Source: Thiogranum longum
Lineage (GTDB): Bacteria > Pseudomonadota > Gammaproteobacteria > DSM-19610
Reading direction: 5' to 3'
DNA: 64,000 nucleotides
Assembly (NCBI RefSeq): GCF_004339085.1
Contig: NZ_SMFX01000001.1
Location: forward strand, 1,191,227-1,255,226
Part shown: in pieces, positions 33,382-64,000 of the stretch
Position numbering within the stretch: position 1 is the first letter of the stretch
How the letters are laid out: each line of letters starts with the position of its first letter
Position numbers and translations under genes: made by a program
Notes under the pieces: model-generated
The model's database searches: none
What the model was told of the DNA's origin: nothing
Seen by the model: only the letters and a program-made list of their open reading frames with translations

Positions 33382-33413
33382 TTGACCTGTGTCCAAGGTG
33401 CAGGTTGTAAAGT
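33382..33413 (+). promoter_or_regulatory. MerR-type promoter with 20-bp spacer (copper operon)
   Basis: TTGACC at 33382–33387 and TAAAGT at 33408–33413 are 20 bases apart, longer than the 17 preferred by sigma-70 and typical of promoters activated by MerR-family proteins. A dyad, ACCTG at 33385–33389 and CAGGT at 33401–33405, spans 21 bp between the two boxes. The MerR gene lies two genes into the same operon (34456). Confidence 0.8.
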
Positions 33414-33457: not shown

Positions 33458-34444
33458 ATGAAGCACTTGATCCGATTATTCGTTGCCACCCTGGCAGTTA
33501 CAACAGGGATGGTTTTGGCTGCACCAACAGTGTATATCCCGCTGGGGTCAGGCAACAGGGTTATTGCCGTTGATGCCGCCAGCGGAAAAATAACCGCCAC
33601 CTTTACCGGCGTCGAAAATCCACACGGACTGGTGGCGACCCCGGATGGAGAATACCTGGTAGCAGGAAGTCTGAGTGAAACACCGCTTGCCGCGGGCCAG
33701 TCCGCCGACACGCCCAACAGTAAGCTGGCTCTCATTCACCCGGCCCACGGGCACGTGATGCTGACCATTCCTGTGTCCGGATGGACGCACCACGAGGCGA
33801 TTACACCGGACGGTCGCTACGTCATTTCCACTCACCCGACGCGTGGTGGTATTAGCGTGGTGGATATGCAGAGTAACCAGGTCATCAAAACCGTCAGCAC
33901 GGGTCCTGCACCAAACTACGCCGTGGTTACGCCGGACGGTAAACGGACCTTTGTGACGAACAGCGGCAATGGAACCATTAGCGAGATAGATACCGCTACA
34001 TGGGCGGTAACTCGTACGCTTGAAGGAGGCCCCGGGCCGACGCATATGGTGTTATCCGGGGACGGAAGTCGATTATTTGTGACTAATCCACGTGCTGGGA
34101 AGATTTCCGCCGTTTCCATCAAAACGGGCAAGGTGGTTGATAGCTGGCAGGTTGGAAATAACCTGCATGGCCTGGATATCGGTGACGATGGAAAGACACT
34201 GTTTGTCAGCAGCAAGCAGGGTGACAAGCTGATTGCCCTGGATTCCGAGACCGGGAAGGTGATCCGTGAGACCAGCCTTTCACCGGCGCCCTACCACCTG
34301 AATACGATTCATGGAACCGGCAAGCTCTATGTCTCCAGTCGCAGCGAACCAAAGATCTGGGTTGTGGAGCAGGATTCGTTGAAAGTACTGGGCGAGATTG
34401 CCCTCCCAGCCGGGGAAGGCCATCAAATGGCAATTGTGAAATAA
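33458..34444 (+). CDS. Secreted YVTN/YncE-type beta-propeller protein
   Basis: The 328-residue protein has a signal peptide (MKHLIRLFVATLAVTTGMVLA) and about seven repeats of the YVTN-like propeller: GNRVIAVDAASGKITATF, SVVDMQSNQVIKTVSTGP, GTISEIDTATWAVTRTLEGG, RAGKISAVSIKTGKVVDSWQ, DKLIALDSETGKVIRETS. The HGL/THMV phrases at blade edges are also typical. Propellers of this group are periplasmic; some bind metals or haem, but no haem ligand motif is evident here. It is the first gene behind the MerR-type promoter and precedes the regulator gene by 11 bp, which suggests a role in metal response or periplasmic metal binding (inference). Confidence 0.88.
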   Translation: MKHLIRLFVATLAVTTGMVLAAPTVYIPLGSGNRVIAVDAASGKITATFTGVENPHGLVATPDGEYLVAGSLSETPLAAGQSADTPNSKLALIHPAHGHVMLTIPVSGWTHHEAITPDGRYVISTHPTRGGISVVDMQSNQVIKTVSTGPAPNYAVVTPDGKRTFVTNSGNGTISEIDTATWAVTRTLEGGPGPTHMVLSGDGSRLFVTNPRAGKISAVSIKTGKVVDSWQVGNNLHGLDIGDDGKTLFVSSKQGDKLIALDSETGKVIRETSLSPAPYHLNTIHGTGKLYVSSRSEPKIWVVEQDSLKVLGEIALPAGEGHQMAIVK

Positions 34445-34455
34445 GCGGAGAGGTT

Positions 34456-34899
34456 ATGTACACACTGACTGTAACGGACCTGGCAAATCGCAGCGGCGCT
34501 ACGCCTCATGCGGTGCGTTACTACACCCGTATGGGCCTGCTGCGACCGAAGCGAAACCCGGATAACGGTTACCGCCTGTATCAATATCGTGAAGTGGGCT
34601 GGCTACGCTTTATTCGGCAGGCAAAGCGCCTGGGCTATACACTGAATGAGATTCGGGAAATCATGCATGACTCCGACCAGGGGAAATCACCCTGCCCACG
34701 CGTGCGTGAAATATTGAACCAGCGTATCGATGAAAATCGCCGGCAGCTGGAGGAACTCATGGCATTACAGACCCGAATGGAACAGGCGCTCGATCAGTGG
34801 GAAAACATGCCTGATGGCATCCCGGACGGTAATTCTGTCTGTCACCTGATCGAATCGTTTGCCGGAAATGAAAATGAGTCGCCCGGAAACAAACATTGA
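34456..34899 (+). CDS. MerR-family metal-responsive transcriptional activator
   Basis: The 147-residue protein has the MerR winged helix at residues 4–72 (VTDLANRSGATPHAVRYYTRMGLLRP, GYRLYQYREVGWLRFIRQAKRLGYTLNEIREIM, read in pieces) and a long dimerisation helix (about 83–115). Metal-site cysteines are C80 in KSPCPRV and C129 in SVCHLIES. The latter aligns with the second loop Cys of CueR/ZntR-type sensors, while the first loop Cys, eight residues earlier, is a Gly. C80 resembles the Cys that marks divalent-metal sensors. It probably activates the promoter at 33382 and the matching sites at 57387 and 63519. Copper is likely from context, but the Cys set is unusual. Confidence 0.9.
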   Translation: MYTLTVTDLANRSGATPHAVRYYTRMGLLRPKRNPDNGYRLYQYREVGWLRFIRQAKRLGYTLNEIREIMHDSDQGKSPCPRVREILNQRIDENRRQLEELMALQTRMEQALDQWENMPDGIPDGNSVCHLIESFAGNENESPGNKH

Positions 34900-34947: not shown

Positions 34948-35175
34948 ATGGACGTAATGATAATCGCATCCAGAGACTGCACCCATTACAGGAACCTGGC
35001 GCGTGAACTGGACGACCTTGGTGTGGACTACAAGGTGTTTTATGTCGAGGACGAGCCGGAACTGGTGGAGAAATACAAGATCCGGCATTCACCGAACCTG
35101 GTCGTGGATGGTGAAGTCAGGTTTCGTGAGTTGCCAACCGAACATGAATTAAGGGAGTGCCTGAAGCCCGGTTAG
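34948..35175 (+). CDS. Small thioredoxin/glutaredoxin-like protein
   Basis: A 75-residue protein of the glutaredoxin-like kind. The active-site region reads IASRDCTHYRNLAREL with a single Cys (C11) in a CxxY arrangement rather than CxxC, followed by VDYKVFYVEDEPELVEKY and the cis-Pro loop IRHSPNLVVDGEVRF. It may act as a monothiol reductase or bind metal together with glutathione. AGGAG lies eight bases before the ATG at 34948. It lies between the MerR gene and the Cu-ATPase gene, all in one direction. Confidence 0.85.
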   Translation: MDVMIIASRDCTHYRNLARELDDLGVDYKVFYVEDEPELVEKYKIRHSPNLVVDGEVRFRELPTEHELRECLKPG

Positions 35176-35241
35176 CCGTATCGGGCCTGGCTATTTCAAT
35201 ATGATGGGATGTTTTTCCGGAAAATAAAAAAAGGAATCACC

Positions 35242-37719
35242 ATGTCAGAGCATGCAAACAAGTCAACAAGTAGCGGAAATCCACAGACTGATCCTGTCTG
35301 TGGCATGACAGTTACAGAAGAAACAGAGCACCGGTATATCCACGAGGGCAAGGTGTACCTGTTTTGCAGTGACTCGTGCCGTGTGAAGTTTACGGCCAGG
35401 CCGGAGATGTACCTGCACCCGGAAAAGCCGGCGAATGATGAAGAAAACCAGCCCGGTGGCTACTGTGTAGATAACAGCTGTGATATCGATACATCACTTT
35501 ACACCTGTCCCATGCACCCGGAGGTACAGCAGACCGGCCCCGGCTCCTGTCCAAAATGCGGCATGGCGCTGGAGCCGTTGACAGTACCGGTGATGGCTAC
35601 AAAAACCGAGTACACCTGTCCCATGCACCCGGAAATTATCCAGGACCACCCCGGCAGTTGCCCGAAGTGCGGTATGGCGCTGGAGCCAAGAAGCGTGGAG
35701 GTTGAAGAAGACACCAGCGAGCTGGACTATATGACCCGGCGCTTCCGGGTGAGTACGTTACTGGCCATCCCGGTATTCTTTAGCGCCATGGCGGCGGAGT
35801 TCTGGCCAGATACAGTGGCGGAAATCGTCAGTCCACATACCCGACAGTGGCTTGAGCTGATACTGGCGACACCGGTGGTATTGTGGGGCGGCTGGCCATT
35901 TTTCGTGCGCTGCTGGCAGTCTATCATCAACCGCAGCCTCAACATGTTCACCCTGATTGGCATCGGTGTTGGGGTGGCCTGGATCTATAGTGTGGCCGGA
36001 ACAGTATTCCCGGGCATATTCCCGCCATCGGTGTTCAATGAATCCGGCGTGGTGCCGGTCTACTTCGAGGCGGCTGCTGTGATTACCGCCCTGGTGCTGC
36101 TGGGCCAGGTCATGGAATTACGCGCCCGTAGCCAGACCAATACCGCCATCAAAATGTTGCTGGGCCTGGCGCCGAAAACAGCACGTATTGTTCGCGCAGA
36201 TGGCTCTGAAGAAGATATCCCGATGGAGCAGGTAAAAGTGGGTGACATTCTGAGAGTGCGTCCCGGTGAAAAGATTCCCGTCGATGGCACGGTGCAGGAT
36301 GGTCTGAGTAACGTGGACGAATCCATGGTTACCGGTGAACCTCTCCCGGTCGAGAAAGCACCGGGCGACAAGCTGATCGGTGCAACAGTCAATGGTACCG
36401 GCAGCTTGTTGATGCGTGCCGAGAAGGTAGGTTCAGATACGTTGCTTGCACAGATCGTCAAGATGGTGGCTGAAGCGCAGCGTTCCCGTGCACCCATCCA
36501 GAAACTCGCCGATATCGTTGCCGCGTACTTTGTGCCGGCGGTGGTACTGATTTCTATTCTCACCTTTTTTGTCTGGTGGAACTGGGGTCCGGAACCGGCG
36601 CTGGCCAATGCTGTGATCAATGCGGTTGCCGTGTTGATCATTGCCTGTCCGTGCGCACTGGGACTGGCTACACCCATGTCAATTATGGTGGGTACCGGCA
36701 AGGGCGCGATGATGGGTGTATTGATCAAAAACGCCGAGGCGCTGGAAGTCATGCGCAAGGTGGACACCCTGGTGGTCGACAAGACCGGTACGCTGACCGA
36801 GGGTAAGCCACAACTGGTGTCGGTTGTTGCGGTCGATGGTTACAAGGAGCACGACATTCTGCGCCTGAGCGCCAGTCTTGAGCGCGCCAGCGAGCATCCC
36901 CTGGCAGAAGCGATTGTGCGTGGTGCTGAAGAAAAAGAAGGTGTCTCTCTCTCTTCGACCGAGGATTTCGAATCCTTCACCGGTAAGGGGGTTGTCGGGA
37001 AGGTGGATGGCCAAACTGTGGCACTGGGGAACCTGAAATTGCTGGAAAGCCTGTCCATCGACCCGGGTGAGTTGCCGCAACTGGCTGAAAAAGGCCGGAC
37101 AGAAGGTCAGACGGTCATGCTGGTTGCAATAGAAGGTAAAGCCGCCGGGTTGATTGGCGTAGCGGACCCGATCAAGGCATCTACACCGGAAGCCATTGAG
37201 GACCTTCACAAGGAGGGTCTCAGCATTGTGATGCTGACCGGTGACAGCCGAACCACCGCACAGGCCGTTGCCGGCAAGTTGAATATTGACCAGGTAGAGG
37301 CTGAGGTATTGCCGGATCAGAAAGCAGCCATTGTGAAGAAACTCCAGGATGAAGGTCGCATCGTCGCCATGGCCGGTGACGGTATCAATGATGCTCCCGC
37401 ACTGGCCCAGGCACATGTCGGTATCGCCATGGGTACCGGTACGGATGTGGCAATGGAAAGTGCCGGCGTCACCCTGGTAAAAGGTGACCTGCGCGGTATC
37501 GTTCGGGCGCGTCGCCTGAGCCGTATGGTGATGCGCAATATCAAGCAGAACCTGTTCTTTGCCTTTGTCTATAACTCGCTCGGTGTCCCGATTGCTGCCG
37601 GCGTACTCTACCCGGTATTCGGCATCCTGCTGTCACCCATGATTGCAGCGGTTGCAATGAGTTTCAGCTCGGTATCAGTCATCAGCAATGCCTTGCGCCT
37701 GCGTAATGCACGCATCTGA
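35242..37719 (+). CDS. copA: Cu+-translocating P1B-type ATPase with YHS and CPMHPE domains
   Basis: The 825-residue pump begins with a YHS/TRASH domain ([21 protein letters not shown]… FCSDSC, about residues 16–60), then two heavy-metal-binding modules, each YTCPMHPE… [12 protein letters not shown] (about residues 87–115 and 128–156). It then has the P1B core: TGEP ([10 protein letters not shown]), the transport CPC in [23 protein letters not shown], the HP dipeptide in SEHPLAEAI, and [10 protein letters not shown]. The last helices carry [11 protein letters not shown] and [17 protein letters not shown], which mark Cu+ (P1B-1) pumps. It exports Cu+ from the cytosol. ATG at 35242 has AAGGA upstream; 35209 is an in-frame alternative. 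The PII-like gene follows 14 bp later. Confidence 0.95.
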
Positions 37720-37733
37720 TAAAGGAGAAATTT

Positions 37734-38063
37734 ATGGACTTTCGAAAAGTAACGGCTATCTTCCGACCTGAGCGCCTCGAGGCGGTGGAAGAAAAACTGC
37801 GCAGCATGGGTGTACCTGGTGTCAGTGTCACCAAGGTCAAGGGCTACGGTGAATATGCCAATTTCTATGAACCGGACTGGATGTGTGAGCATGTTCGTAT
37901 CGAGGTGTTTATCGGGAAAGGCAAGGCAGAAGAGATTGCCGAAGCCATCGTAGAGGCCGCTCACACGGGTCTGGACGGTGATGGGATCGTTGCTGTTTTG
38001 CCCGTTGAGTCTGTTTATCATATTCGCCGAAAAGAGAAGTGTAACCACGAAGTATGTGAATAA
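37734..38063 (+). CDS. PII-like signalling protein in a copper operon
   Basis: The 109-residue protein has the PII ferredoxin-like fold: MDFRKVTAIFRPERLEAVEEKL, VSVTKVKGYGEY, MCEHVRIEVFIGKGKAEEIAEAIVEAAHTG, then DGIVAVLPVESVYHIRRKEK (all read in pieces). The B-loop TGxxGDG is present as TGLDGDG. The T-loop is short and lacks the Tyr uridylylated in GlnB. Extra Cys/His residues (FYEPDWMCEH and KCNHEVCE at the C-terminus) suggest metal or thiol sensing. PII-like proteins of this kind have been seen beside metal pumps and could tune CopA. No ammonium transporter or glnA gene is near. Confidence 0.88.
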   Translation: MDFRKVTAIFRPERLEAVEEKLRSMGVPGVSVTKVKGYGEYANFYEPDWMCEHVRIEVFIGKGKAEEIAEAIVEAAHTGLDGDGIVAVLPVESVYHIRRKEKCNHEVCE

Positions 38064-38082
38064 CCTTGATGGAGGTGACAGC

Positions 38083-39396
38083 ATGCTGCTCTCAGGAAGA
38101 AAATTCGATTCATTACAGGATCCCAGCCCGGGTACCAGGCAGTGCGACAGTCGCGGGTTGATTGGCGCAGATATCGTTTCAACAGTGCTCAGGGATTACC
38201 AGGGTGAAATAGCTGTCAGACTCTGGGATAACACGCTTGTGCAAGGGAAGTCCGGTGCGCCCTGTACTATAGTTTTCAGGGAGCCTGGAGCATTACGTGA
38301 GTTGATACTTCATCGCAATCTTTTACGTCTTGTCGACGCCTACCTGGCTGGTGCAATTGATGTGGAAGGTGACATTGTATCCCTGTTTGAGCTTGAGGAC
38401 AGCCTGAAAAAGCTGGACCTGTCCCTGCTTACACGCTTGCACCTGGTGCGACAGGTACTACGTCTGCCAGGGCTAAGGCGCTGCATAGGGTCTACACGAC
38501 TCCGGCGGGCAAAACTGACGGCGCACCGGAACAGCCGATCCAGTATTGCCCACCATTACGATGTCGGCAATGATTTCTATGCGTTATGGCTTGACCCTGA
38601 GATGGTGTATTCCTGTGCCTACTATCGCAGTAACAGTCAGCCGCTGGCCGAGGCGCAGCGGGATAAACTGGATTATCTATGCAGAAAACTGCGCCTGAAA
38701 CCGGGCCAGACACTACTGGATATTGGCTGTGGCTGGGGTGCCCTGGCACTGTGGGCTGCCCGCCACTACGGGGTAAAGGTGCACGGTATCACGCTCAGCG
38801 AGGCCCAGCTTGAACTGGCACAGACGAGAGTGCATGACAGTGGTCTGGAAGGGCAGGTGCATATTGAATTACTGGATTACCGCAAACTTCCGGATGACAG
38901 GCAATATGACCGCGTCGTAAGTGTGGGCATGTTTGAACATGTAGGGATAAAAAATTTACCGACTTATTTCAGTACCGTGCGACGGGTACTTAAACCCGAC
39001 GGCCTGTTTCTGAATCACGGCATCACCAGCGAGACTGGCTGGAAGCGTACGCCGATGACCCGCTTCATGAACCGTTATATTTTTCCTGATGGCGAACTGG
39101 CACGTATCAGTGATGTGACTGACGCTATGGAGCAGGCCGGTTTTGAACCGCTTGACGTTGAATGTCTGCGGCGACATTACGCGCTTACATTACGCCACTG
39201 GGTTGACAGGCTTGAGGGAAAGCGTGACGAGGCAATCGCCTGCTCAAGTGAGGTAACGTACCGTTTGTGGCGCCTGTATATGGCGGGTTGTGCCTGGTAT
39301 TTTGACGAAGGAAGCATCAGCCTGCACCAGGTGCTGGCCGGCCACCGGCATCAGCCGCAACCTGTACCGCTGCGACGTGATGACCTGTACAACTGA
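38083..39396 (+). CDS. Cyclopropane-fatty-acid synthase-type methyltransferase
   Basis: The 437-residue protein has an N-terminal lipid-binding region and a class I methyltransferase of the CFA synthase family. Key segments are SIAHHYDVGNDFYALWLDPEMVYSCAYY, LDIGCGWGALALWAARHYG (SAM loop), GITLSEAQLELAQ, and VSVGMFEHVGIKNLPTYF. These enzymes convert unsaturated membrane lipids to cyclopropane forms using SAM. I use the ATG at 38083, preceded by GGAGGTGA. Its place in the copper operon, after CopA and the PII-like gene, suggests that membrane lipid change accompanies metal stress (inference). Confidence 0.92.
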   Translation: MLLSGRKFDSLQDPSPGTRQCDSRGLIGADIVSTVLRDYQGEIAVRLWDNTLVQGKSGAPCTIVFREPGALRELILHRNLLRLVDAYLAGAIDVEGDIVSLFELEDSLKKLDLSLLTRLHLVRQVLRLPGLRRCIGSTRLRRAKLTAHRNSRSSIAHHYDVGNDFYALWLDPEMVYSCAYYRSNSQPLAEAQRDKLDYLCRKLRLKPGQTLLDIGCGWGALALWAARHYGVKVHGITLSEAQLELAQTRVHDSGLEGQVHIELLDYRKLPDDRQYDRVVSVGMFEHVGIKNLPTYFSTVRRVLKPDGLFLNHGITSETGWKRTPMTRFMNRYIFPDGELARISDVTDAMEQAGFEPLDVECLRRHYALTLRHWVDRLEGKRDEAIACSSEVTYRLWRLYMAGCAWYFDEGSISLHQVLAGHRHQPQPVPLRRDDLYN

Positions 39397-52820: not shown

Positions 52821-53716
52821 TATGGAAACACCAGTACGAGGACACCGACGAGGAAGATATTCAGCAGCGCCAGCGGGATGCCCAGCTTCCAGCACCAGGC
52901 CAGCAGGTGTGCTTCGCGGATGCGCGGCATCATGCGTCCGGCCAGCAGCATGGTGGCGGTCACTGCCAGTATCTTGATGGCACTCCAGGCCCAGGGCGGT
53001 AGCCACGGACCCTGCCATCCACCGAGGTAGAAAATCACCGTGGCTGCCGCCAGGGTAATAATCAACGCCAGGCGTCCAAGCCGGAACACCGCCAGTCGGA
53101 CGCCGGTATATTCGGCTTCCACGCCACCGGCCAGTTCACCTTTCGCCGTTGGCAGGTCAAACGGTGGCAGAAACGCCAGTGCCATGGCCGCGATGAAAAA
53201 CAGCACAAAGCCCAGTGGTTGATAGAGGACATTCCACAACTGCGCCTGTGAGATCACGATTTGTGTGGTAAATAATGACTCGGCACGCATCGCAACCGCA
53301 GTAATCGGCATCACAATGAGCATGGAATAGGCAATAAGCTGGCCGAGAAAACGCCAGCCACCGACCATGGCATAGGCGCCGTCCGGCCCCCAGCCGGCCA
53401 TCAGCAGGGCCACCAGTACATAGACCAGCGCGGCGTTGATGAACAGTGCGCCGGTGGCAAGGTCGGTGATGATCAGGTTCGGTGTCAGCGGTACGACGGC
53501 AGCCGCGAGTACTGCCGAGAGCAACAGCAGCACCGGGGCGACCTCGAAGAAAATCCGGTCGGGTTTGCGCGTCAGGATAGATTCCCGCCCCAGCAGGGCG
53601 ATGCCGGCAAGTACCGGCGCGGCCAGTCGAAAACGTCCGCACGTTGTCCAGTTTTCCAGGACAGCGACCAGGTAGGCGCCGAATGCCAGTAACAGCAGCA
53701 GGAGCACGGTCGTCAT
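52820..53716 (-). CDS. nuoH: NuoH-like subunit with altered quinone-site motif
   Basis: The 298-residue protein aligns with NuoH (E. coli 325), especially in the loop and helix after [37 protein letters not shown], and [12 protein letters not shown]…[23 protein letters not shown]. The canonical AETNRTPFDLPEGE is changed to [16 protein letters not shown], so two acidic residues near the quinone pocket are missing (E of AETNR and E of LPEGE). The N-terminus is short. In complex I this subunit joins NuoB/NuoD and forms the quinone channel. It overlaps the fusion gene by 4 bp. Confidence 0.9.
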
Positions 53717-55656
53717 TGCCGCACCTCCCAGGGAGACAGGTCGAGGGAACCGACGGCGACCAGCGCATCACCCAGTTCCTGTTGTTCGGTCAGCGGGGCA
53801 ATGAGGGTGAGGTGGTGCGTGGATGGGGTCTCCAGTTGTGCCGCAGTGACCTGCCCCGTCTCCAGTGTCAGCTGCAGGCGGGCCGGGCCGCGGGGTGTTT
53901 CTACGCTGGCTTCACTGCTCCCGGATGCTTCACCGGGAAGAGGGGGTGTCGGTACCGCGATGGCGCCAGCGGATTCAATGAGCATCAGGCTGTGAGTGAT
54001 TTCATCAAGGCGGACGTGCAGGCGGGCCAGGGCATCGCCTTCTTTACGCCTGGCTGGTGTGAACCCCAAGGTGATAAAGGTCTTATCCGTATTGCGTGCA
54101 TCGTCACTGATTCCAGAGGCGCGCGCCACGGGACCGCGCAGTGCCGTATCCTGCGCCAGCCGGCCGATACCGGCTATTCGGGATTTCAGTAAAGGCGTTC
54201 GTTGCAGGCGTTTCATCAGGGACTGTATGGCTGGTCTCAGCGCCGCGACCTGTTTCATGTCGGCATGCCGGAAATCCAGTTGCAGTACTGCTGCGCGTTG
54301 CACCAGCCAGTCGAAACCGGTTTGTTGCCCAAACAGCGCCAGCCAGCCCAGGTGGCTCACGATACGTTCCCGTTCCAGCGCGCCGGCACGCGCCTGTGCC
54401 GTTTCGGCAGGCACCTTTTCGCCAGCGGCCTTTTCCAGTGCCTGGCAGGCAAGGAGCCGGTAGGCAACGGGTGCCAGTGGGTCCAGGTCGGCCATTCTTT
54501 CGATGAAGTGCGTGGCGTCCATCGGTGAGTGGCAGAGCAGTTCCCGGTTTCCGTTCAACGCGAGTGCTTCGGACCCGGCGACAGTATCTCCGTCGAGTGT
54601 CAGTGTCAGCAGTAATCCGCCGGGCAGGCCCGGGAAAAAAGGCCCGAAGGGGGCATCAATCCATTCCATCTGCAGGCCATCACCACTGCGTGGCAGGTCT
54701 TTGGTAACGTCGATCATGGACATGAAGCCCATGTCATCGTGATCCATGGCGCTATGGTTCATGTGTTGATGATCGTGCGCCGGTTCAGCCGTTATCTCGC
54801 GGGGTTCCAGGTCCATCCCGCACTTGGGACAGGAACCGGGTTCACTCTGTACGACTTCCGGGTGCATGGGACAGGTGTATTCGACTGCCGCATCGTGATC
54901 CATATGTGAATGATCGTGCGCCGGTTCAGCCTGTATCTCGCGGGGTTCCAGGTCCATCCCGCACTTGGGACAGGAGCCGGGTTCACTCTGTACGACTTCC
55001 GGGTGCATGGGGCAGGTATATTCGACCGCTGCGTCGTGATCCATGTGGTGATAGTCATGAGCTGGTGTCACCTGCGTATCCGCACTGGCATCAGCCTGTG
55101 CTTGATCCGCATGCGTATGCCCAACGCCGGCCTGGACTTCGCGTGGCACCAGGAACATGCCGCACTTCGGGCAGGACCCCGGTTCGTCCCGGACGACTTC
55201 CGGATGCATCGGGCAGGTATATTCGATACGGACTTGCAGTACCGGCGCGTCGAAGTCCGATACGTCCGGGCGGAAGGCGCTTTCGGAAAATACATGGCGC
55301 AGTTGACGCACACCTTCGAGCAAATTCTGCTGGGAAAGCCCCGTTGCAACGTCAGCGCCTGGTAAAGGCGACAGGTCTTCTGTACCCAGTACGAACAACG
55401 CCCGCGGGCGGACCATCTGGGCATAAACTACGGCTGCGGCTTCCCGCAACGCCGGGGGAATAGGGCCGACCACCAGCAGCACACTGGCGTGGCGCGGGCT
55501 GGCGACCCGCTGCAGTCCGGCCGCTTCAATGTCCAGGCCGTGGGCGCGGGCAATGTCGGGACCGGGAATGAGGAATACGTTGAGATCACGGGCCATCGCG
55601 CCAGCAACCAGCCGCCGTAATCCGGACAGTTTTCCCTGTCGGGCGCCGGTAATCAT
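53713..55656 (-). CDS. NuoB-like – triple CPMHPE metal-binding – NuoD-like fusion protein
   Basis: This 647-residue protein has three parts. Residues 1–140 resemble NuoB/hydrogenase small subunits ([36 protein letters not shown]) but have no Cys, so the ligands of cluster N2 are missing. Residues 145–310 hold three modules YTCPMHPEV… [10 protein letters not shown] (Cys at 148/162/165, 215/229/232, 262/276/279) linked by His-rich segments ([33 protein letters not shown]). Residues 315–647 resemble NuoD/49-kDa ([72 protein letters not shown]). It sits between nuoA and nuoH, exactly where nuoB, C and D would be. Metal handling by a complex I-like enzyme is inferred. Confidence 0.85.
54771..55052. 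repeat. Two tandem 141-bp units encoding the second and third CPMHPE modules
   Basis: The block beginning GATCGTGCGCCGGTTCAGCC at 54771 is repeated at 54912, 141 bp (47 codons) later, with only scattered differences over most of its length. Each unit encodes one CPMHPE/CPKCGM module plus its His-rich linker. The first module, upstream in the protein, is more diverged. Confidence 0.9.
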
Positions 55657-57386: not shown

Positions 57387-57418
57387 TTGACCTGTGTGTA
57401 GTGCACAGGTTCTATACT
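57387..57418 (+). promoter_or_regulatory. MerR-type promoter with 20-bp spacer (YHS gene)
   Basis: TTGACC at 57387–57392 and TATACT at 57413–57418 are 20 bases apart. The dyad arms ACCTGTG (57390–57396) and CACAGGT (57404–57410) span 21 bp, with the same phasing as the sites at 33382 and 63519. It lies in the gap divergent from the complex I-like operon and points to the gene at 57469. Confidence 0.83.
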
Positions 57419-57468: not shown

Positions 57469-57966
57469 ATGAGTGTTGAATACACAAAAGTCAGGGATCC
57501 GGTCTGTGACATGATGGTGGATCCGCGTGAGTTGTCTATCGACTACCTGGGGATGCATTTTTCATTTTGCTCCGAGCAATGCAAACAGCGGTTTTTAGAT
57601 AACCCTAATCTGTATATAGGTACAGCCGGGCATAAATCCCCCAGACAGGAAGGCCGGGTAGTGCTTAAGCGACGGCGCCTGAAACTGTCGGAGCCACTGT
57701 CAGCTGAAGCCAGAGAGGGATTGATTAAACAGCTCCAGTCGATGATGGGTATCAAGCGCGTCGATGTTGAAGGCGATATCGTCGATATTACTTACGACTT
57801 GCTCGAAGCAACAGAAGCGCAGATCGAGGAGACGATTGCGCAATCCGGTGCAGTCCTCGGACAGAGTCTGGCGAGACGTCTGAGTCGGGGGTTTGTAAAG
57901 TATCTTGAGGAAACAGAGATTGAAAACCTTGAGGTAAAGCCGCAACCTCACCATCATGGTCATTAG
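57469..57966 (+). CDS. YHS-domain metal-binding protein with a C-terminal HMA-like part
   Basis: The 165-residue protein starts with a YHS/TRASH domain (VRDPVCDMMVDPRELSI… SFCSEQCKQRFLDNP, residues 8–45) whose Cys residues bind metal. Residues about 65–130 look like a ferredoxin-like HMA fold without the CxxC (LQSMMGIKRVDVEGDIVDITYDLLEATEAQIEETIAQSG, read in pieces). The C-terminus ends in a His cluster (PQPHHHGH). This resembles copper chaperones in which a Cys-rich domain is joined to an HMA domain. It follows a MerR-type promoter and overlaps the sensor-kinase gene convergently by 4 bp. A chaperone or sensor role is inferred. Confidence 0.85.
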   Translation: MSVEYTKVRDPVCDMMVDPRELSIDYLGMHFSFCSEQCKQRFLDNPNLYIGTAGHKSPRQEGRVVLKRRRLKLSEPLSAEAREGLIKQLQSMMGIKRVDVEGDIVDITYDLLEATEAQIEETIAQSGAVLGQSLARRLSRGFVKYLEETEIENLEVKPQPHHHGH

Positions 57967-59348
57967 CCTGTGGGTAGTATGACCTGAAAACGGGTAATGC
58001 CTTCGGACGAAGTTACACTGACGCTGCCGCCATGCGCTTCAACGATGGATTTAACGATGGCCAATCCCAGTCCGGTACCACCCTCCTGCCGGGCCGGGTC
58101 GACACGATAGAACCGATCGAACAATTTGGGGAGGTGTTCGGGTGATATTGACGGGCCAGGGTTTTCTATTACGATATAGGCTTCGTTCATAGCTGTAGCA
58201 CTGAGTTCTATCCGTACAGTAGCTCCCGGAGATGCGTGGCGTATCGCATTGGAAAGCAGGTTTCCCAATGCACGTTGCAGCATGAGTCTATCACCCGGTA
58301 CCTTGGCAGTGCCTTCAAGTTTCAGTTTAACCCCATGCTCTTCGGCCCATGCCTCGTAAAACTCGAACAGAGTCTCCACTTCACTTGCCAGATCCACCTC
58401 AGCTGTTTTCATGTCGTCAGGGTCATTGTCTGCTTTTGCAAGGAAAAGCATGTCGTTGATCATCTGGGCCATGTGCTCGTATTCTTCGATATTCGAGAAG
58501 AGAATCTCCTTGTATTCCTCGATCGTACGTGGCTTCGAAAGGGCGACCTGGGTTTGGGTCATCATGTTGGTCACCGGCGTACGCAGATCATGCGCAATAT
58601 CGGCAGAAAAATTGGAAAGGCGACGAAAATCTTCTTCCATGCGCTCAAGCATTTCATTGAACGAGACAGCAAGATCGGTCAGTTCACGCGGCACCGTTTC
58701 CGGCGACAGACGCGTATTCAGTTCATTCGCGGAGATGTGGCGTATTTGGGTAATTATTTGATGCAGTGGTGCGTGTCCGTAGCGAACCACGACCCAGCCC
58801 ATGAGGCTGGTAATGGCGAAACCACTGGCGATCATGAGCCACAGAGTATGGCGAAAGCGTTTGAGAAACTGCAGGTGAAAGTCTATAGGCAGTGCTGCAA
58901 CGATGGTGTAGACCTGATTACCTTGTGCGGTATTGTCACGCATCTTGCGAACCAGGATATGAAAGCGATGTTCGCCATCGGTCCATTCCTGTATGTTGGC
59001 ATCTTTGGCTGTCTTTACTGCAATGCCTTCAAGCATCGACAGATCCGGCCCGGAACTGGAATAGTGTACTTTTCCGTTCTGGTCGGTTATGTAAAGTGAT
59101 GCGTCGTGATGCCCGACCAGTAGATCACCAAATCGCTGTCTGAGGAGGGAAGGGTCATCATTTTCGGTGCTTGAAACTATTGCCTGGTGAACCGCCTGGG
59201 CCATGGTTTCGAGTTCTTTGGCATCTTCCATGGCGAAGTGGTGTTTGATCGAGCTTTCGATCAGCCAGCCAAACCCGGAGAACACGATAATGGCCACGAC
59301 ACCGAATAAAACGGTGAGTCGTAGCGTTAGTGAATGTGGGCGCCGCAT
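57963..59348 (-). CDS. Heavy-metal sensor histidine kinase (CusS/CopS type)
   Basis: The 461-residue kinase has two membrane helices (LTVLFGVVAIIVFSGFGWLIE near the start and LWLMIASGFAITSLMGWVVV around residue 175), flanking a periplasmic sensor domain of about 135 residues. It then has HAMP (APLHQIITQIRHISANELNTRL), the phospho-acceptor in FSADIAHDLRTPVTNM, the N box LGNLLSNAIRHAS, and the G boxes DRFYRVDPARQEGGTGLGLAIV. This layout and the phrase around the H box are those of the CusS/CopS family, which senses periplasmic copper or silver. ATG at 59348 is 10 bp after the regulator stop. Adjacent copA/copB support copper. Confidence 0.93.
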   Translation of the reverse strand: MRRPHSLTLRLTVLFGVVAIIVFSGFGWLIESSIKHHFAMEDAKELETMAQAVHQAIVSSTENDDPSLLRQRFGDLLVGHHDASLYITDQNGKVHYSSSGPDLSMLEGIAVKTAKDANIQEWTDGEHRFHILVRKMRDNTAQGNQVYTIVAALPIDFHLQFLKRFRHTLWLMIASGFAITSLMGWVVVRYGHAPLHQIITQIRHISANELNTRLSPETVPRELTDLAVSFNEMLERMEEDFRRLSNFSADIAHDLRTPVTNMMTQTQVALSKPRTIEEYKEILFSNIEEYEHMAQMINDMLFLAKADNDPDDMKTAEVDLASEVETLFEFYEAWAEEHGVKLKLEGTAKVPGDRLMLQRALGNLLSNAIRHASPGATVRIELSATAMNEAYIVIENPGPSISPEHLPKLFDRFYRVDPARQEGGTGLGLAIVKSIVEAHGGSVSVTSSEGITRFQVILPTG

Positions 59349-59358
59349 TGTCCCTGAT

Positions 59359-60042
59359 TCAGCTCGCGTCCTGAAGGTCAAGTATGTAGCCCATGCCGCG
59401 ACGGGTATGGATCAACCTCGGTTCAAAATTCTCGTCTATCTTGGCGCGGAGTCGACGAATCGCGACATCAATGACGTTGGTGTCGCTGTCGAAGTTCATG
59501 TCCCAGACCTGTGATGCAATCAGGGAACGGGGTAGTACTTCGCCCTGCCGTCTGACCAGCAGTTCCAGCAGTGCAAATTCCTTGGCGGTGAGTTGTATAT
59601 TCTGCCCTGCACGTGTTGCGCATCTTCGCAATAAATCGAGTTCGAGATCGGCAACGCTCAACCTCGTTTCATTTACCGGCGTTGCACCGCGCCGCAGCAG
59701 GGTTCGAACCCGTGCCAGCAGTTCGGAGAAGGCGAATGGTTTGACCAGATAGTCGTCGGCACCGAGTTCCAGTCCCTTGACGCGGTCATCAACACTGTCT
59801 CGTGCGGTAAGAAACAGTACCGGCACATTTCTGCCAGCCTCGCGAAGTGATTTGAGAATTTTCCAGCCATCGATGTCAGGCAGCATGACATCAAGGATCA
59901 GCAGGTCAAAATCTTCAGTCATGGCCTGATGATGGCCATCCAGCCCATTACGTGCGAGGTCAACGATAAATCCGGCCTCACTGAGGCCCTGGTGGAGGTA
60001 ATCGCCAATTTTGCTTTCGTCTTCGACGATCAGGAGTTTCAT
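59359..60042 (-). CDS. OmpR-family response regulator (CusR/CopR type)
   Basis: The 227-residue regulator has a receiver domain ([24 protein letters not shown], phospho-Asp in [15 protein letters not shown], Lys in [15 protein letters not shown]) and an OmpR-type winged helix ([37 protein letters not shown], and [11 protein letters not shown]). It would bind a cop box and activate copA/copB; such a box lies 144 bp upstream, between the divergent genes. I use the ATG at 60042 (MKLLIVEDE); the longer frame to 60186 adds 48 residues that fit no receiver domain. The kinase gene follows. Confidence 0.95.
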
Positions 60043-60173
60043 CTGTAATCCGCGCAAATACCCGTTGTTATAAAAAGGTCTTCCAGATATTCCGGCCGTT
60101 GTGACGGAACATTGCCAATCTTTCTGCCAGGCCGGGTTAGTCGCCATATTAAGCAGGGTTGAATGGCGGGAAG

Positions 60174-60211
60174 ATGACACAACCATGACAAAATTGTAAT
60201 GGTTGTGTCAT
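60174..60211. promoter_or_regulatory. Cop box nested in a 13-bp palindrome
   Basis: ATGACACAACCAT (60174–60186) and ATGGTTGTGTCAT (60199–60211) are a perfect 13-bp inverted repeat with 12 bases between. Within it, TGACA (60186–60190), four bases and TGTAAT (60195–60200) match the cop box TGACAnnnnTnTnAT bound by CopR/CusR. It lies between the regulator gene and copA, so it may serve both. Confidence 0.82.
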
Positions 60212-60296: not shown

Positions 60297-62054
60297 ATGA
60301 AACGCACTTTAGCGCAGGCAGATATCATCCCGGATCATTCACGGCGCCGATTTGTACAGGGTCTTGCTGCAGGAGGGGCCATGCTGGGCCTGTCCCCCAT
60401 GCTGAGCCCGGTGTGGGCTCAGCAGGCTGCCGGGACAAAAACAGGCATGGCCCCCGTGCTCACAGGAAAAGAATTTGATCTCACTATAGCCGAGACAATG
60501 GTCAACTACACCGGCAAGCCACGCCTGGCGACTACGATCAACGGTTCAATACCTGCGCCAATCCTGCGCTGGCGCGAGGGAGACACCATTACCCTGCGTG
60601 TAACGAACCGTCTTGCGGTATCTACATCGATACATTGGCACGGGATTATCCTCCCTTTCCAGATGGATGGTGTCCCGGGCGTCAGTTTTTCGGGCATCGC
60701 ACCAGGTGAAACCTTTGTCTACCGTTTTAAAGTCCGGCAATCGGGAACCTACTGGTATCACTCTCATACAGCTTTTCAGGAACAGACCGGTATGTATGGC
60801 GCCATAATCATTGATCCCGCCGAGGGAGGTCGTATTCGTGCAGATCGTGATTATGTCGTCCAGTTATCTGACTGGACCGACGAGAATCCGCTTGCCGTCT
60901 TTGCAAAACTGAAGAAGCAAAGCGATTACTACAATTTCAATCAGCTCACCGCCGGTGATTTCCTTAAGGATGTATCTGATAAGGGGCTGGGTATAGCCAT
61001 GGACAAAAGGCGCATGTGGAACCGTATGCGAATGAATCCTACGGACCTGGCGGATATTTCGGCGTATACCTACACCTTTCTGATGAACGGGACGACACCC
61101 TCGGGTAACTGGACGGGCCTGTTCAGGCGTGGTGAACGTGTGCGGTTACGTTTTATTGGCAGCGGGACCCAGAGTTTTTTTGATGTTCGGATTCCCGGCC
61201 TGAAAATGACGGTTGTGCACGTTGATGGTCAGGATGTAGAGCCGGTTACGGTTGATGAGTTCCGTTTCGGACCGGGTGAGACCTATGATGTGATTGTCGA
61301 GCCGAAGGATGACAGGGCTTACACCATCTTTGCACAGTCCATGGATCGAACCGGCTATGCGCGAGGAACACTGGCGCCACGTATCGATATGGAAGGTGAA
61401 GTACCGGCGCTTGACAAGCCGCAATGGCTGACTATGGCAGACATGATGGGGAGTATGGCGCGAGAGAGTATGAGCGGCATGCAGACGATGGATGCGATGG
61501 ATCATGGGTCCATGGCAATGGGTGACAACAAGGTGCATGCCCGCCACGCCAGAACCGAATACGGACCCAGCGTCGATATGCGTGTCGATACGCCACGCAC
61601 AAATCTGGATGACCCCGGTGTCGGGTTGCGCAACAACGGCAGGCGAGTATTGACCTATGCCGACCTGCACACGATCGGTGGGCCACTCGATCCGCGTGAC
61701 GCTGAACGCGAAATTGAACTCCATCTCACTGGCAATATGGAGCGCTATACCTGGTCGCTCGATGGTCTCGAGTTCGGCAAGTCCACACCGGTGCATTTCC
61801 GCCATGGCGAGCGGCTGCGCGTCATACTGCATAACGACACCATGATGACACACCCCATGCATCTGCATGGTATGTGGAGTGAACAGGAAACAGCGGATGG
61901 AGAATTTCTGGCCCGGCGCCACACTATCAGCGTACAGCCGGCGCAACGCGTCAGTTTCCTTGTGACCGCAGATGCGCTCGGTCGCTGGGCATGGCACTGC
62001 CATCTTCTTTATCACATGGATGCGGGAATGTTCCGCGAAGTGGTTGTGGCGTGA
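60297..62054 (+). CDS. copA: Periplasmic multicopper oxidase CopA (copper resistance)
   Basis: The 585-residue protein has a Tat signal (HSRRRFVQGLAAGGAMLG) and three cupredoxin domains. Copper ligands are visible in SIHWHGIILP and YWYHSHTAFQEQTGMYG (N-terminal), and in HPMHLHGMW and RWAWHCHLLYHMDAGMF (C-terminal), covering the type 1 Cys-His-Met and the trinuclear sites. Between them is a Met-rich stretch (MADMMGSMARESMSGMQTMDAMDH), which binds extra copper in this family. It oxidises Cu+ in the periplasm. Upstream is a cop box; copB follows 33 bp downstream. The symbol is shared with the Cu-ATPase at 35242, a different protein. Confidence 0.96.
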   Translation: MKRTLAQADIIPDHSRRRFVQGLAAGGAMLGLSPMLSPVWAQQAAGTKTGMAPVLTGKEFDLTIAETMVNYTGKPRLATTINGSIPAPILRWREGDTITLRVTNRLAVSTSIHWHGIILPFQMDGVPGVSFSGIAPGETFVYRFKVRQSGTYWYHSHTAFQEQTGMYGAIIIDPAEGGRIRADRDYVVQLSDWTDENPLAVFAKLKKQSDYYNFNQLTAGDFLKDVSDKGLGIAMDKRRMWNRMRMNPTDLADISAYTYTFLMNGTTPSGNWTGLFRRGERVRLRFIGSGTQSFFDVRIPGLKMTVVHVDGQDVEPVTVDEFRFGPGETYDVIVEPKDDRAYTIFAQSMDRTGYARGTLAPRIDMEGEVPALDKPQWLTMADMMGSMARESMSGMQTMDAMDHGSMAMGDNKVHARHARTEYGPSVDMRVDTPRTNLDDPGVGLRNNGRRVLTYADLHTIGGPLDPRDAEREIELHLTGNMERYTWSLDGLEFGKSTPVHFRHGERLRVILHNDTMMTHPMHLHGMWSEQETADGEFLARRHTISVQPAQRVSFLVTADALGRWAWHCHLLYHMDAGMFREVVVA

Positions 62055-62086: not shown

Positions 62087-62914
62087 ATGATAAACAGGCA
62101 AGCGACTTACCTGATGACTGCTGTACTGGTATTTGGTCTACCCGGTGTACAGGCGCAGGTATCAACTCCCCAGGTGAAAACACCTTTGATGCAGGGTGGT
62201 TCACCACCAGCTGATGCACGTGATCCATATGCTTATTCAGATGGTTATGATTTCGGCGATGTGCCACGTCCGCGATTTGCAGATGAGAAAAACTTTTACC
62301 TCGTCCTTATGGATCGACTGGAAACTGTCAGAACAAGCGATATCACCTCGGGTTTCTACGACTTGCAGGCCTGGTATGGTCGGGATTACGACCGTGCGGT
62401 GTTAAAGGCCGAAGGCACCGTTGACAGTAACCGGCTCGAGGATGCCAGTACGGAGTTGTTATGGGGCCATGCAGTGGCTACTTACTGGGATACACAGCTT
62501 GGCATTCGCTACGATAGCGGTGACGGGACTGACAGAAGGTGGCTGGCCTTTGGTGTGCAGGGATTGGCGCCTTACTGGTTTGAAGTGGATGCGACCGCGT
62601 ATGTTGGTGAAGGAGGACGAACGGCAGCAAATCTGGAAACGACGTATGACCTGTTGCTGACGCAGAAACTCATTTTACAGCCAAGAATTGAAGCCGACTG
62701 GTATGGAAAGCGCGATACACGGCGTGGGCTGGGTAGCGGGGTTTCCGAAGTGAAAGCAGGCTTGCGATTGCGCTATGAGGTCCGTCGTGAGCTGGCCCCG
62801 TACGTGGGGCTTGAATGGGCAAGGAAGTATGGTGATACAAAAGACTTTTCGCAGAGCGCCGGGCAAGAGGCAAGTGAGGCAAGATTGGTTGCCGGTCTGC
62901 GGTTCTGGTTCTGA
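62087..62914 (+). CDS. copB: Outer-membrane copper resistance protein CopB
   Basis: The 275-residue protein has a signal peptide (MINRQATYLMTAVLVFGLPGVQA) and the CopB/PcoB beta-barrel pattern: FYLVLMDRLE, YDLQAWYGRDYDRAVLKAEGTVD, ELLWGHAVATYWDTQLGIRYDSG, PYWFEVDATAYVGE, LQPRIEADWYGK, and a C-terminal Phe-rich strand (RLVAGLRFWF) for outer-membrane insertion. The Met-rich N-terminal stretch found in many CopB proteins is short here. I use the ATG at 62087, preceded by GGAG; ATGs at 62054 and 61991 are alternatives. It follows copA in the same unit. Confidence 0.92.
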   Translation: MINRQATYLMTAVLVFGLPGVQAQVSTPQVKTPLMQGGSPPADARDPYAYSDGYDFGDVPRPRFADEKNFYLVLMDRLETVRTSDITSGFYDLQAWYGRDYDRAVLKAEGTVDSNRLEDASTELLWGHAVATYWDTQLGIRYDSGDGTDRRWLAFGVQGLAPYWFEVDATAYVGEGGRTAANLETTYDLLLTQKLILQPRIEADWYGKRDTRRGLGSGVSEVKAGLRLRYEVRRELAPYVGLEWARKYGDTKDFSQSAGQEASEARLVAGLRFWF

Positions 62915-62950: not shown

Positions 62951-63499
62951 ATGAAAAAGATGATTTCGATTATAGCGTTTACCACCTTGCCTGCCTTTGC
63001 CATGGCGGGTAGTGGACATACTGATACCCATCACGGAAATGCAGTGAATGCCAAAGGGCATCACGATCATGCTACCTCTTCCATGAATCACGCAGAAGAA
63101 GGCAGCCATAAGGCGGATGCCGGTAAACCGGGTGACCCGGAAAAAGTGACGCGTACGATAGAAGTAAGCATGGAAGATAGTATGCGGTTCGCACCAGGCA
63201 ACATGACCTTCGATGCAGGAGAGACGGTACGTTTTATTGTCAGAAACAACGGGAAGATTACGCACGAAATGGTCATCGGATCTGTCGATGAGCTCAGGGA
63301 ACACGCAGATATGATGCGTACCATGCCGACGATGAAACACACGGAATCGAATATGATTTCTCTGGATTCGGGGAAGCAAGGTGAGCTGATCTGGCAATTC
63401 AGCCAGCCCGGTACGTTTGATTTTGCCTGCCTTGTACCCGGCCACCTTGAGGCGGGCATGACCGGAAAAATCGCAGTAAACCGTGTGTCGTCCCACTAG
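62951..63499 (+). CDS. Periplasmic cupredoxin (plastocyanin/azurin-like copper protein)
   Basis: The 182-residue protein has a signal peptide (MKKMISIIAFTTLPAFAMA), then a His/Met-rich linker (SGHTDTHHGNAVNAKGHHDH, NHAEEGSH) and a cupredoxin domain from about residue 70. Type 1 ligands are His in GKITHEMVIG, Cys and His in FACLVPGHLEAGM, and the following Met. The order His…Cys-x4-His-x4-Met is standard. The N-terminal linker probably binds further copper. It may carry copper or electrons in the periplasm. A Shine–Dalgarno-like GAGAGG precedes the ATG, and it lies 36 bp after copB. Confidence 0.92.
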   Translation: MKKMISIIAFTTLPAFAMAGSGHTDTHHGNAVNAKGHHDHATSSMNHAEEGSHKADAGKPGDPEKVTRTIEVSMEDSMRFAPGNMTFDAGETVRFIVRNNGKITHEMVIGSVDELREHADMMRTMPTMKHTESNMISLDSGKQGELIWQFSQPGTFDFACLVPGHLEAGMTGKIAVNRVSSH

Positions 63500-63518: not shown

Positions 63519-63550
63519 TTGACCTGTGCCCAGAGCACAGGTTGTAGGTT
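63519..63550 (+). promoter_or_regulatory. MerR-type promoter with 20-bp spacer (Rieske gene)
   Basis: TTGACC at 63519–63524 and TAGGTT at 63545–63550 are 20 bases apart. The dyad arms ACCTGTGC (63522–63529) and GCACAGGT (63535–63542) are perfect and span the same 21 bp as the sites at 33382 and 57387. The Rieske gene starts at 63578. Confidence 0.8.
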
Positions 63551-63577
63551 GTGTGGCAAACCAGGGAGGATGCAGTT

Positions 63578-64000
63578 ATGACTGAATCAATTGACAAGAA
63601 GCGGCGGCGCTTGCTGATAGCCGCGGCCACTGTGGCGGGTGGGGTCGGTGTTGTTGCTACCGTGGTGCCGTTCATTGAGTCATGGAACCCCAGTGAAAAA
63701 GCGCGCTCGGCCGGTGCGCCGGTAATGGTGGATTTTAGCAAACTGGAACCCGGGCAGCAGATTGCCGTGAGTTGGCGAGGGAAGCCGGTCTGGGTCCTTC
63801 GGCGCACTCCGAAAATGCTGAAAGACCTGCGTTCTTCGACTATCCGGGACAAGCTGCGTGATCCGGACTCAGCGGTCGAATCCCAACAGCCGGCTTATGC
63901 GAAAAATGAATTTCGTGCCATTAAAGCCGAGTATCTGGTTGTGATCGGTATTTGTACACACCTGGGCTGTGTGCCGACGTTCCGACCGGATGTCGCACCT
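63578..64000 (+). CDS. petA: Rieske iron-sulfur subunit of cytochrome bc1 complex (runs off the window)
   Basis: The first 141 residues are in the window. The start is Tat-like and anchor-forming: KKRRRLLIAAATVAGGVGVVATVVPFIESW, as in proteobacterial UQCRFS proteins. It continues with VDFSKLEPGQQIAVSWRGKPVWVLRRTP and the first half of the [2Fe-2S] site in VVIGICTHLGCVPTF. The second half of the site is outside the window. GGGAGGA lies ten bases before the ATG. It follows a MerR-type promoter, which is unusual for a bc1 gene; whether cytochrome b and c1 genes follow cannot be seen. Confidence 0.94.
   Translation, partial: MTESIDKKRRRLLIAAATVAGGVGVVATVVPFIESWNPSEKARSAGAPVMVDFSKLEPGQQIAVSWRGKPVWVLRRTPKMLKDLRSSTIRDKLRDPDSAVESQQPAYAKNEFRAIKAEYLVVIGICTHLGCVPTFRPDVAP

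Follow-up and report, generated by a model that had tools for sequence, protein, structure and literature searches.

The window analysed in this study is a stretch of 64,000 nucleotides that comprises bases 1,191,227-1,255,226 of the complete Thiogranum longum genome (2,916,906 bp, 2.92 Mb). A bc1-type Rieske gene lies at its end and runs out of it, preceded by a MerR-type promoter and a set of copper resistance genes. The features on which the argument depends are the following.

33382-33413, plus strand: third copy of the MerR-type promoter, its dyad with two mismatches, in front of the merR operon
33458-34444, plus strand: YncE-like beta-propeller protein, first gene of the merR operon
34456-34899, plus strand: MerR-family protein whose cysteines lie in SPCPxVR and SVCxLIE motifs, the presumed regulator of all three promoters
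34948-35175, plus strand: thioredoxin/glutaredoxin-like small protein (PF13192)
35209-37719, plus strand: copper P-type ATPase with YHS and two HMBD domains (TIGR01511, 598 bits, cut-off 397)
37734-38063, plus strand: PII-like protein (PF00543)
57387-57418, plus strand: second copy of the MerR-type promoter, TTGACC-N20-TATACT, with a good -10 (TATACT)
57469-57966, plus strand: YHS-domain gene behind the 57387 promoter (PF04945)
57963-60186, minus strand: CusS/CusR-like copper two-component system (ORFs; CusS sensor domain PF21085), kinase 57963-59381 and regulator 59359-60186
60185-60200, plus strand: CopR/CusR-box-like dyad ATGACAAAATTGTAAT 5' of copA, weak evidence by itself
60297-62054, plus strand: copA-type multicopper oxidase, TAT (TIGR01480, 935 bits, cut-off 479)
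62087-62914, plus strand: copB, outer-membrane copper resistance protein (PF05275, E=1.9e-86)
62951-63499, plus strand: CopI-like periplasmic cupredoxin (PF00127)
63519-63550, plus strand: MerR-type promoter TTGACC-N20-TAGGTT, a 0-mismatch pattern match, supported also by a MerR spacing scan
63578-64000, plus strand, on to 64171 in the genome (L003:4805-5398): orphan bc1-type Rieske gene, 197 aa

The initial annotation had called the last of these genes a bc1-type Rieske gene, and rightly so. It begins with the ATG at 63578, with the Shine-Dalgarno sequence GGGAGG in front, scores 235.2 bits against TIGR01416 (curated cut-off 97.4), lies above the cut-offs of Pfam PF00355 and PF10399, and matches the solved bc1 Rieske chain 8smr_C with a phmmer E value of 1e-73. 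The start predicted for transcription from the MerR-type promoter, shortly upstream of 63578, also makes the alternative, longer reading frame from the GTG at 63551 less likely. Of named relatives, a Thiogranum MAG (L107) was the nearest found, with a Rieske protein that is 82% identical. The genes copA, copB and that of the cupredoxin lie 5' of the Rieske gene on the same strand, and the CusS/CusR-like pair is divergent from copA; the cupredoxin is named CopI-like only, its score against the CopI model NF047895 (99.7 bits) falling below the cut-off of 200. Rieske genes of this type usually, though not obligatorily, form an operon with cytochromes b and c1, and this one does not: no petB or petC was found behind it in the sequence past the window end, so that the bc1 gene set proposed in the initial annotation is not there. 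A SHOCT mini-protein and a geranylgeranyl-reductase (GGR)-like flavoprotein follow instead, with a fatty-acid cis/trans isomerase, convergently oriented, after them. Enzymes of membrane lipids are a repeated feature of the copper loci, namely a cyclopropane fatty acid synthase (37978-39396), the cis/trans isomerase (L003:6878-9310, minus strand) and the GGR-like flavoprotein (L003:5719-6846), the gene of the last adjoining the orphan Rieske in many genomes. Also beside copper genes, in a nuo-like cluster, a 647-aa complex I-like subunit (53713-55656, minus strand; 49-kDa region, PF00346) carries three HMBD (CPMHPE..CPKCGM).

In MerR-family promoters, a dyad that begins within the -35 element occupies the spacer of 19-20 bp. 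At 63519 we found a TTGACC -35, a -10 and a 20-bp spacer with a dyad, and a merR gene is present in the genome. The operator is a perfect 8-bp dyad, ACCTGTGC-CCAGA-GCACAGGT, at 63522-63542, about 20 bp past the end of the cupredoxin gene; the initial annotation had noted a perfect dyad ahead of the Rieske gene. A chance origin was rejected, because the window holds an exact match where 0.03 matches would be expected even with up to three mismatches allowed, and because of the genome-wide control; an intrinsic terminator was likewise dismissed, none being reported there by the terminator scan. A pattern built from the 63519 site and its nearest match, run over the 2.92 Mb genome with a tolerance of three mismatches, found exactly three sites, all inside the window and all heading copper-linked genes; the reversed pattern used as control gave 0 matches. 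One of the three promoter units includes the merR gene itself, the arrangement that autoregulation of a MerR operon would lead one to expect. By family score (TIGR01511) the ATPase of this operon is a copper-type P1B pump. The regulator scores 70.6 bits against the CueR model TIGR02044 (cut-off 147.4), so it is not filed as CueR, and it also lies below the curated cut-offs of the ZntR, MerR and CadR models; the sensed metal is therefore not named from the sequence. By sequence, then, the orphan Rieske gene belongs to a three-promoter MerR regulon that includes a copper P-type ATPase.

The complete genome encodes two bc1-type Rieske proteins and one PF00033 cytochrome b, the composition of a bc1 with an accessory Rieske subunit. 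The sole cytochrome b gene, at about 1,072,923, belongs to a housekeeping operon petA-petB-petC-sspA (about 1,072,250-1,074,840) that lies 180 kb from the orphan. The Rieske protein of this operon (petA, L005:8253-8846) is 62% identical to the orphan and has the same ligands, hinge and Tat anchor; unlike the orphan, it sits in petABC-sspA and has Ser at position 132, and none of the three MerR-type sites of the genome is at its operon. The initial annotation would have been undermined had there been no other bc1 operon and had this one been driven constitutively from a different promoter; in fact the housekeeping operon lies at another place and lacks the operator. Among 16 orphan-bearing genomes searched, 14 contain a full-length petB-like gene, and the exceptions are fragmented MAGs: G019 (85% complete), with no full petB, and G004 (97% complete, 270 contigs), in which none was found although an orphan Rieske is present. 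In the latter (L045, G004:C84) the orphan lies directly behind a MerR operator; the assembly may be incomplete at petB, or this orphan may have no bc1 to partner with.

The association with copper recurs. Rieske loci were gathered by similarity to the orphan and not by context, truncated, distant and duplicate loci being left out, and Cu-ATPase, CopA/CopB, cupredoxin, MerR/CueR, DUF5676 and DUF2933 were counted as copper genes within the stretch available for each locus. Copper genes were near 24 of 32 lone-Rieske loci and none of 81 petABC loci (Fisher p=4.8e-18, an indicative value given that the loci are not phylogenetically independent); with the plasmid loci removed, they were near 19 of 26 lone-Rieske loci. 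Among the carriers are Halomonas, Aquisalimonas, Chromatiales and betaproteobacterial MAGs, and copper islands on plasmids of Halomonas, Cupriavidus and Burkholderia also hold orphan Rieskes. On the plasmid of Halomonas sp. KO116 the order is DUF5676, ICMT, SHOCT, copper ATPase, DUF2933 and then petA, and the plasmids of Cupriavidus gilardii and C. oxalaticus carry RND efflux genes, CueR, a P-type ATPase, DUF2933 and petA. The plasmid-borne petABC of Legionella adelaidensis and of Alteromonas pBGP9 are complete operons and were kept as contrast. Taken jointly, the orphan status, the single bc1, the MerR regulon and the recurrent copper association are very nearly certain on the genome data.

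The operator is found in other genomes as well. It is present in 11 of 17 genomes of the genus, and in nine loci it opens the transcription unit of a lone Rieske gene: the window's own (L003), L041 (10330, minus strand), L042 (8778), L043 (9124), L045 (6930), L088 (9538), L090 (12102, minus strand), L103 (9258) and L110 (4683), the last with an operator nearly identical to the window's site. The same search of 1.39 Mb around petABC operons gave 0 matches. Homologues of the window MerR occur in most of the nine loci, and all those at least 50% identical have SPCPxVR and SVCxLIE-type cysteines. Outside this set, the Alteromonas macleodii MerR WP_012516866.1 is 40% identical to the window MerR, has the cysteines at the same positions and is preceded by the site TTGACCTGTGAGCAACACATAGGTT. 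It is tabled among merR-copA clusters, and merR-copA is copper-induced in strains CUKW and KCC02 (PMC8478169). The merR-copA-cupredoxin-DUF2933-ICMT islands of Alteromonas resemble the Thiogranum locus in regulator, operator and types of neighbour; they differ in that copper induction has been measured there and that the paper makes no mention of a Rieske gene (PMC8478169). The same operator in front of a cluster of copper-induced type suggests, indirectly, that the window MerR answers to copper.

According to the alignment, the orphan protein keeps the Tat N-terminus, the membrane anchor, the hinge, and CTHLGC and CPCHGS with the disulfide cysteines. The four Fe-S ligands and the two disulfide cysteines are present in every row of the 23-row orphan clade, and the main orphan clade retains most of the other residues invariant in operon Rieskes. 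Pairwise comparison gave a dN of 0.07-0.13 against a dS of 0.3-2.4 (the value of 2.4 being saturated), so the gene is under purifying selection. In a reduced tree of 65 rows, from which long branches had been removed, a single branch (94/82) parts the orphans, except L101, from the operon Rieskes, so the window's orphan did not arise recently from the petA of its own genome. The possibility that Rieske genes were recruited to copper islands more than once was also considered; the larger tree suggests at least three label changes, the reduced tree shows only the one branch, and convergence is not claimed. Taken as a clade of their own, the copper-linked orphans are rejected (AU test, p 0.013), in keeping with the non-copper orphans interspersed among them. 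One old orphan lineage, some copies of which are outside copper islands, is the simpler reading. Two further loci stood out. In a Thiothrix-type genome, a lone Rieske with Ser132 (L101:8153-8740) groups with that genome's own bc1 Rieske and lies just before an apparent cbb3 oxidase operon; we read it as an independent duplication. The lone Rieske at L102:8779-9405, of the orphan lineage, lies beside a nuo operon and has CACH, not CPCH, in its cluster-binding loop.

With one cytochrome b in the genome and an intact bc1 contact sequence in the orphan, exchange into the existing bc1 is the simplest function. The best explanation, to which we give a probability of about 0.6 on genomic grounds, is that the orphan is a copper-induced replacement Rieske for the single housekeeping bc1. 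Copper, the putative inducer, would on rising cause the MerR protein to untwist the promoter with its over-long 20-bp spacer, and the spare Rieske would be made together with the copper export ATPase and the thioredoxin-like, PII-like and YHS proteins. Tat would export it with its cluster, and the membrane-anchored protein, presumably more resistant to copper than the housekeeping Rieske, would enter the sole cytochrome bc1 in place of the latter, so that quinol oxidation could go on even with the ordinary Rieske damaged or blocked in its maturation. A Rieske recruited to replace a copper-damaged one had been offered as a possibility in the initial annotation; the orphan paralogue, the MerR regulon with its Cu-ATPase and the recurrence across proteobacteria bear this out in part, and the replacement itself we infer. 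The recurrence in many bacteria suggests that copper damages the Rieske protein and that the cell swaps in a spare.

It is also possible, though rather unlikely, that the orphan enters bc1 for retuning, an altered redox potential or docking slowing or rerouting electrons under copper and, for example, limiting superoxide. Consistent differences from the operon Rieskes do lie beside the cluster-binding loops: position 132, next to a disulfide cysteine, is V, I or T in 31 of 31 orphans compared and S or A in 81 of 81 operon proteins, Y152 is typical of the main orphan clade where operon Rieskes have F, and the orphans have a two-residue insertion at 87-88. However, the main residues known to set the potential are alike, Ser159 being kept and position 161 being mostly Phe in both groups. 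A Val after CTHLGC is also found in an alphaproteobacterial-type bc1 Rieske chain matched among solved structures, so V132 is not copper-specific; residue 132 marks the lineage and may matter for function, but it does not prove copper hardening. Nor was there a clear gain of metal-binding residues, the C, H and M counts of orphan and operon proteins being similar.

Less probable still, the orphan may not act in bc1 at all but carry electrons in the periplasm, anchored to the membrane, and feed the CopA oxidase or the CopI-like cupredoxin. In the window the orphan comes directly after the genes for CopA, CopB and the CopI-like protein, and one conjugative plasmid of Burkholderia contaminans (L084:7977-12958) pairs a lone Rieske (petA) with a multicopper oxidase and a HiPIP, alongside two cueR genes and a PII-like gene. 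Against this, the hinge and the cluster tip have kept their bc1 sequence, and most orphan loci have a Cu-ATPase but no match to a multicopper oxidase or cupredoxin. A duplicated Rieske that sits in copper islands by chance, with no copper-specific benefit, seems improbable: a few members of the orphan lineage (L044, L097 and L102) have no clear copper neighbours, but the contrast between lone and operon loci, the operator at the Rieske unit itself and the strong purifying selection all speak against such a passenger. A second, metal-induced bc1 complex, the other possibility raised in the initial annotation, is excluded in T. longum, bona fide bc1-type though the orphan is, by the missing petBC downstream and the lack of a cytochrome b of its own.

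The replacement reading has partial precedents. More than one Rieske gene per bc1 is known from Rubrivivax gelatinosus, whose subunits are reported to be exchangeable (Ouchane 2005, as cited in PMC6256036 and PMC4013037). In Thiogranum, by contrast, the spare is part of a metal regulon, and its exchange is a proposal only. The second Rieske gene of R. gelatinosus is not known to have been described as a copper-island gene. In Mesorhizobium loti a second Rieske gene is likewise under conditional control, but there a cytochrome b follows and the response is to low oxygen, whereas the Thiogranum orphan stands alone and is tied to copper genes (PMC6256036). As for the damage, dehydratase Fe-S clusters are among the primary targets of copper (Macomber and Imlay 2009, cited in PMC6769254), and respiratory complexes of R. 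gelatinosus are stated to be damaged by metal ions, in a study that did not test bc1 (PMC6247083); extending this to the Rieske protein is an inference. None of the open-access PMC papers searched lists the Rieske cluster among the targets of copper, and no earlier report of a copper-linked Rieske was found in them. Each component is of a known kind, and the combination appears to be undescribed in the open-access literature.

Known copper resistance consists mainly of export, oxidation or sequestration of copper. That copper islands carry a dedicated, separately evolved and copper-hardened Rieske, swapped into the host bc1, is a tentative proposal that we rate at somewhat under even odds. If it is true, the bc1 Rieske protein would be a physiological target of copper poisoning, and a spare part of the respiratory chain would be a mobile resistance gene. 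The recurrent mobile duplicate of one respiratory subunit points to a specific weak spot of aerobic respiration under copper, and makes testable the question of whether the bc1 Rieske protein is a main periplasmic target of copper.
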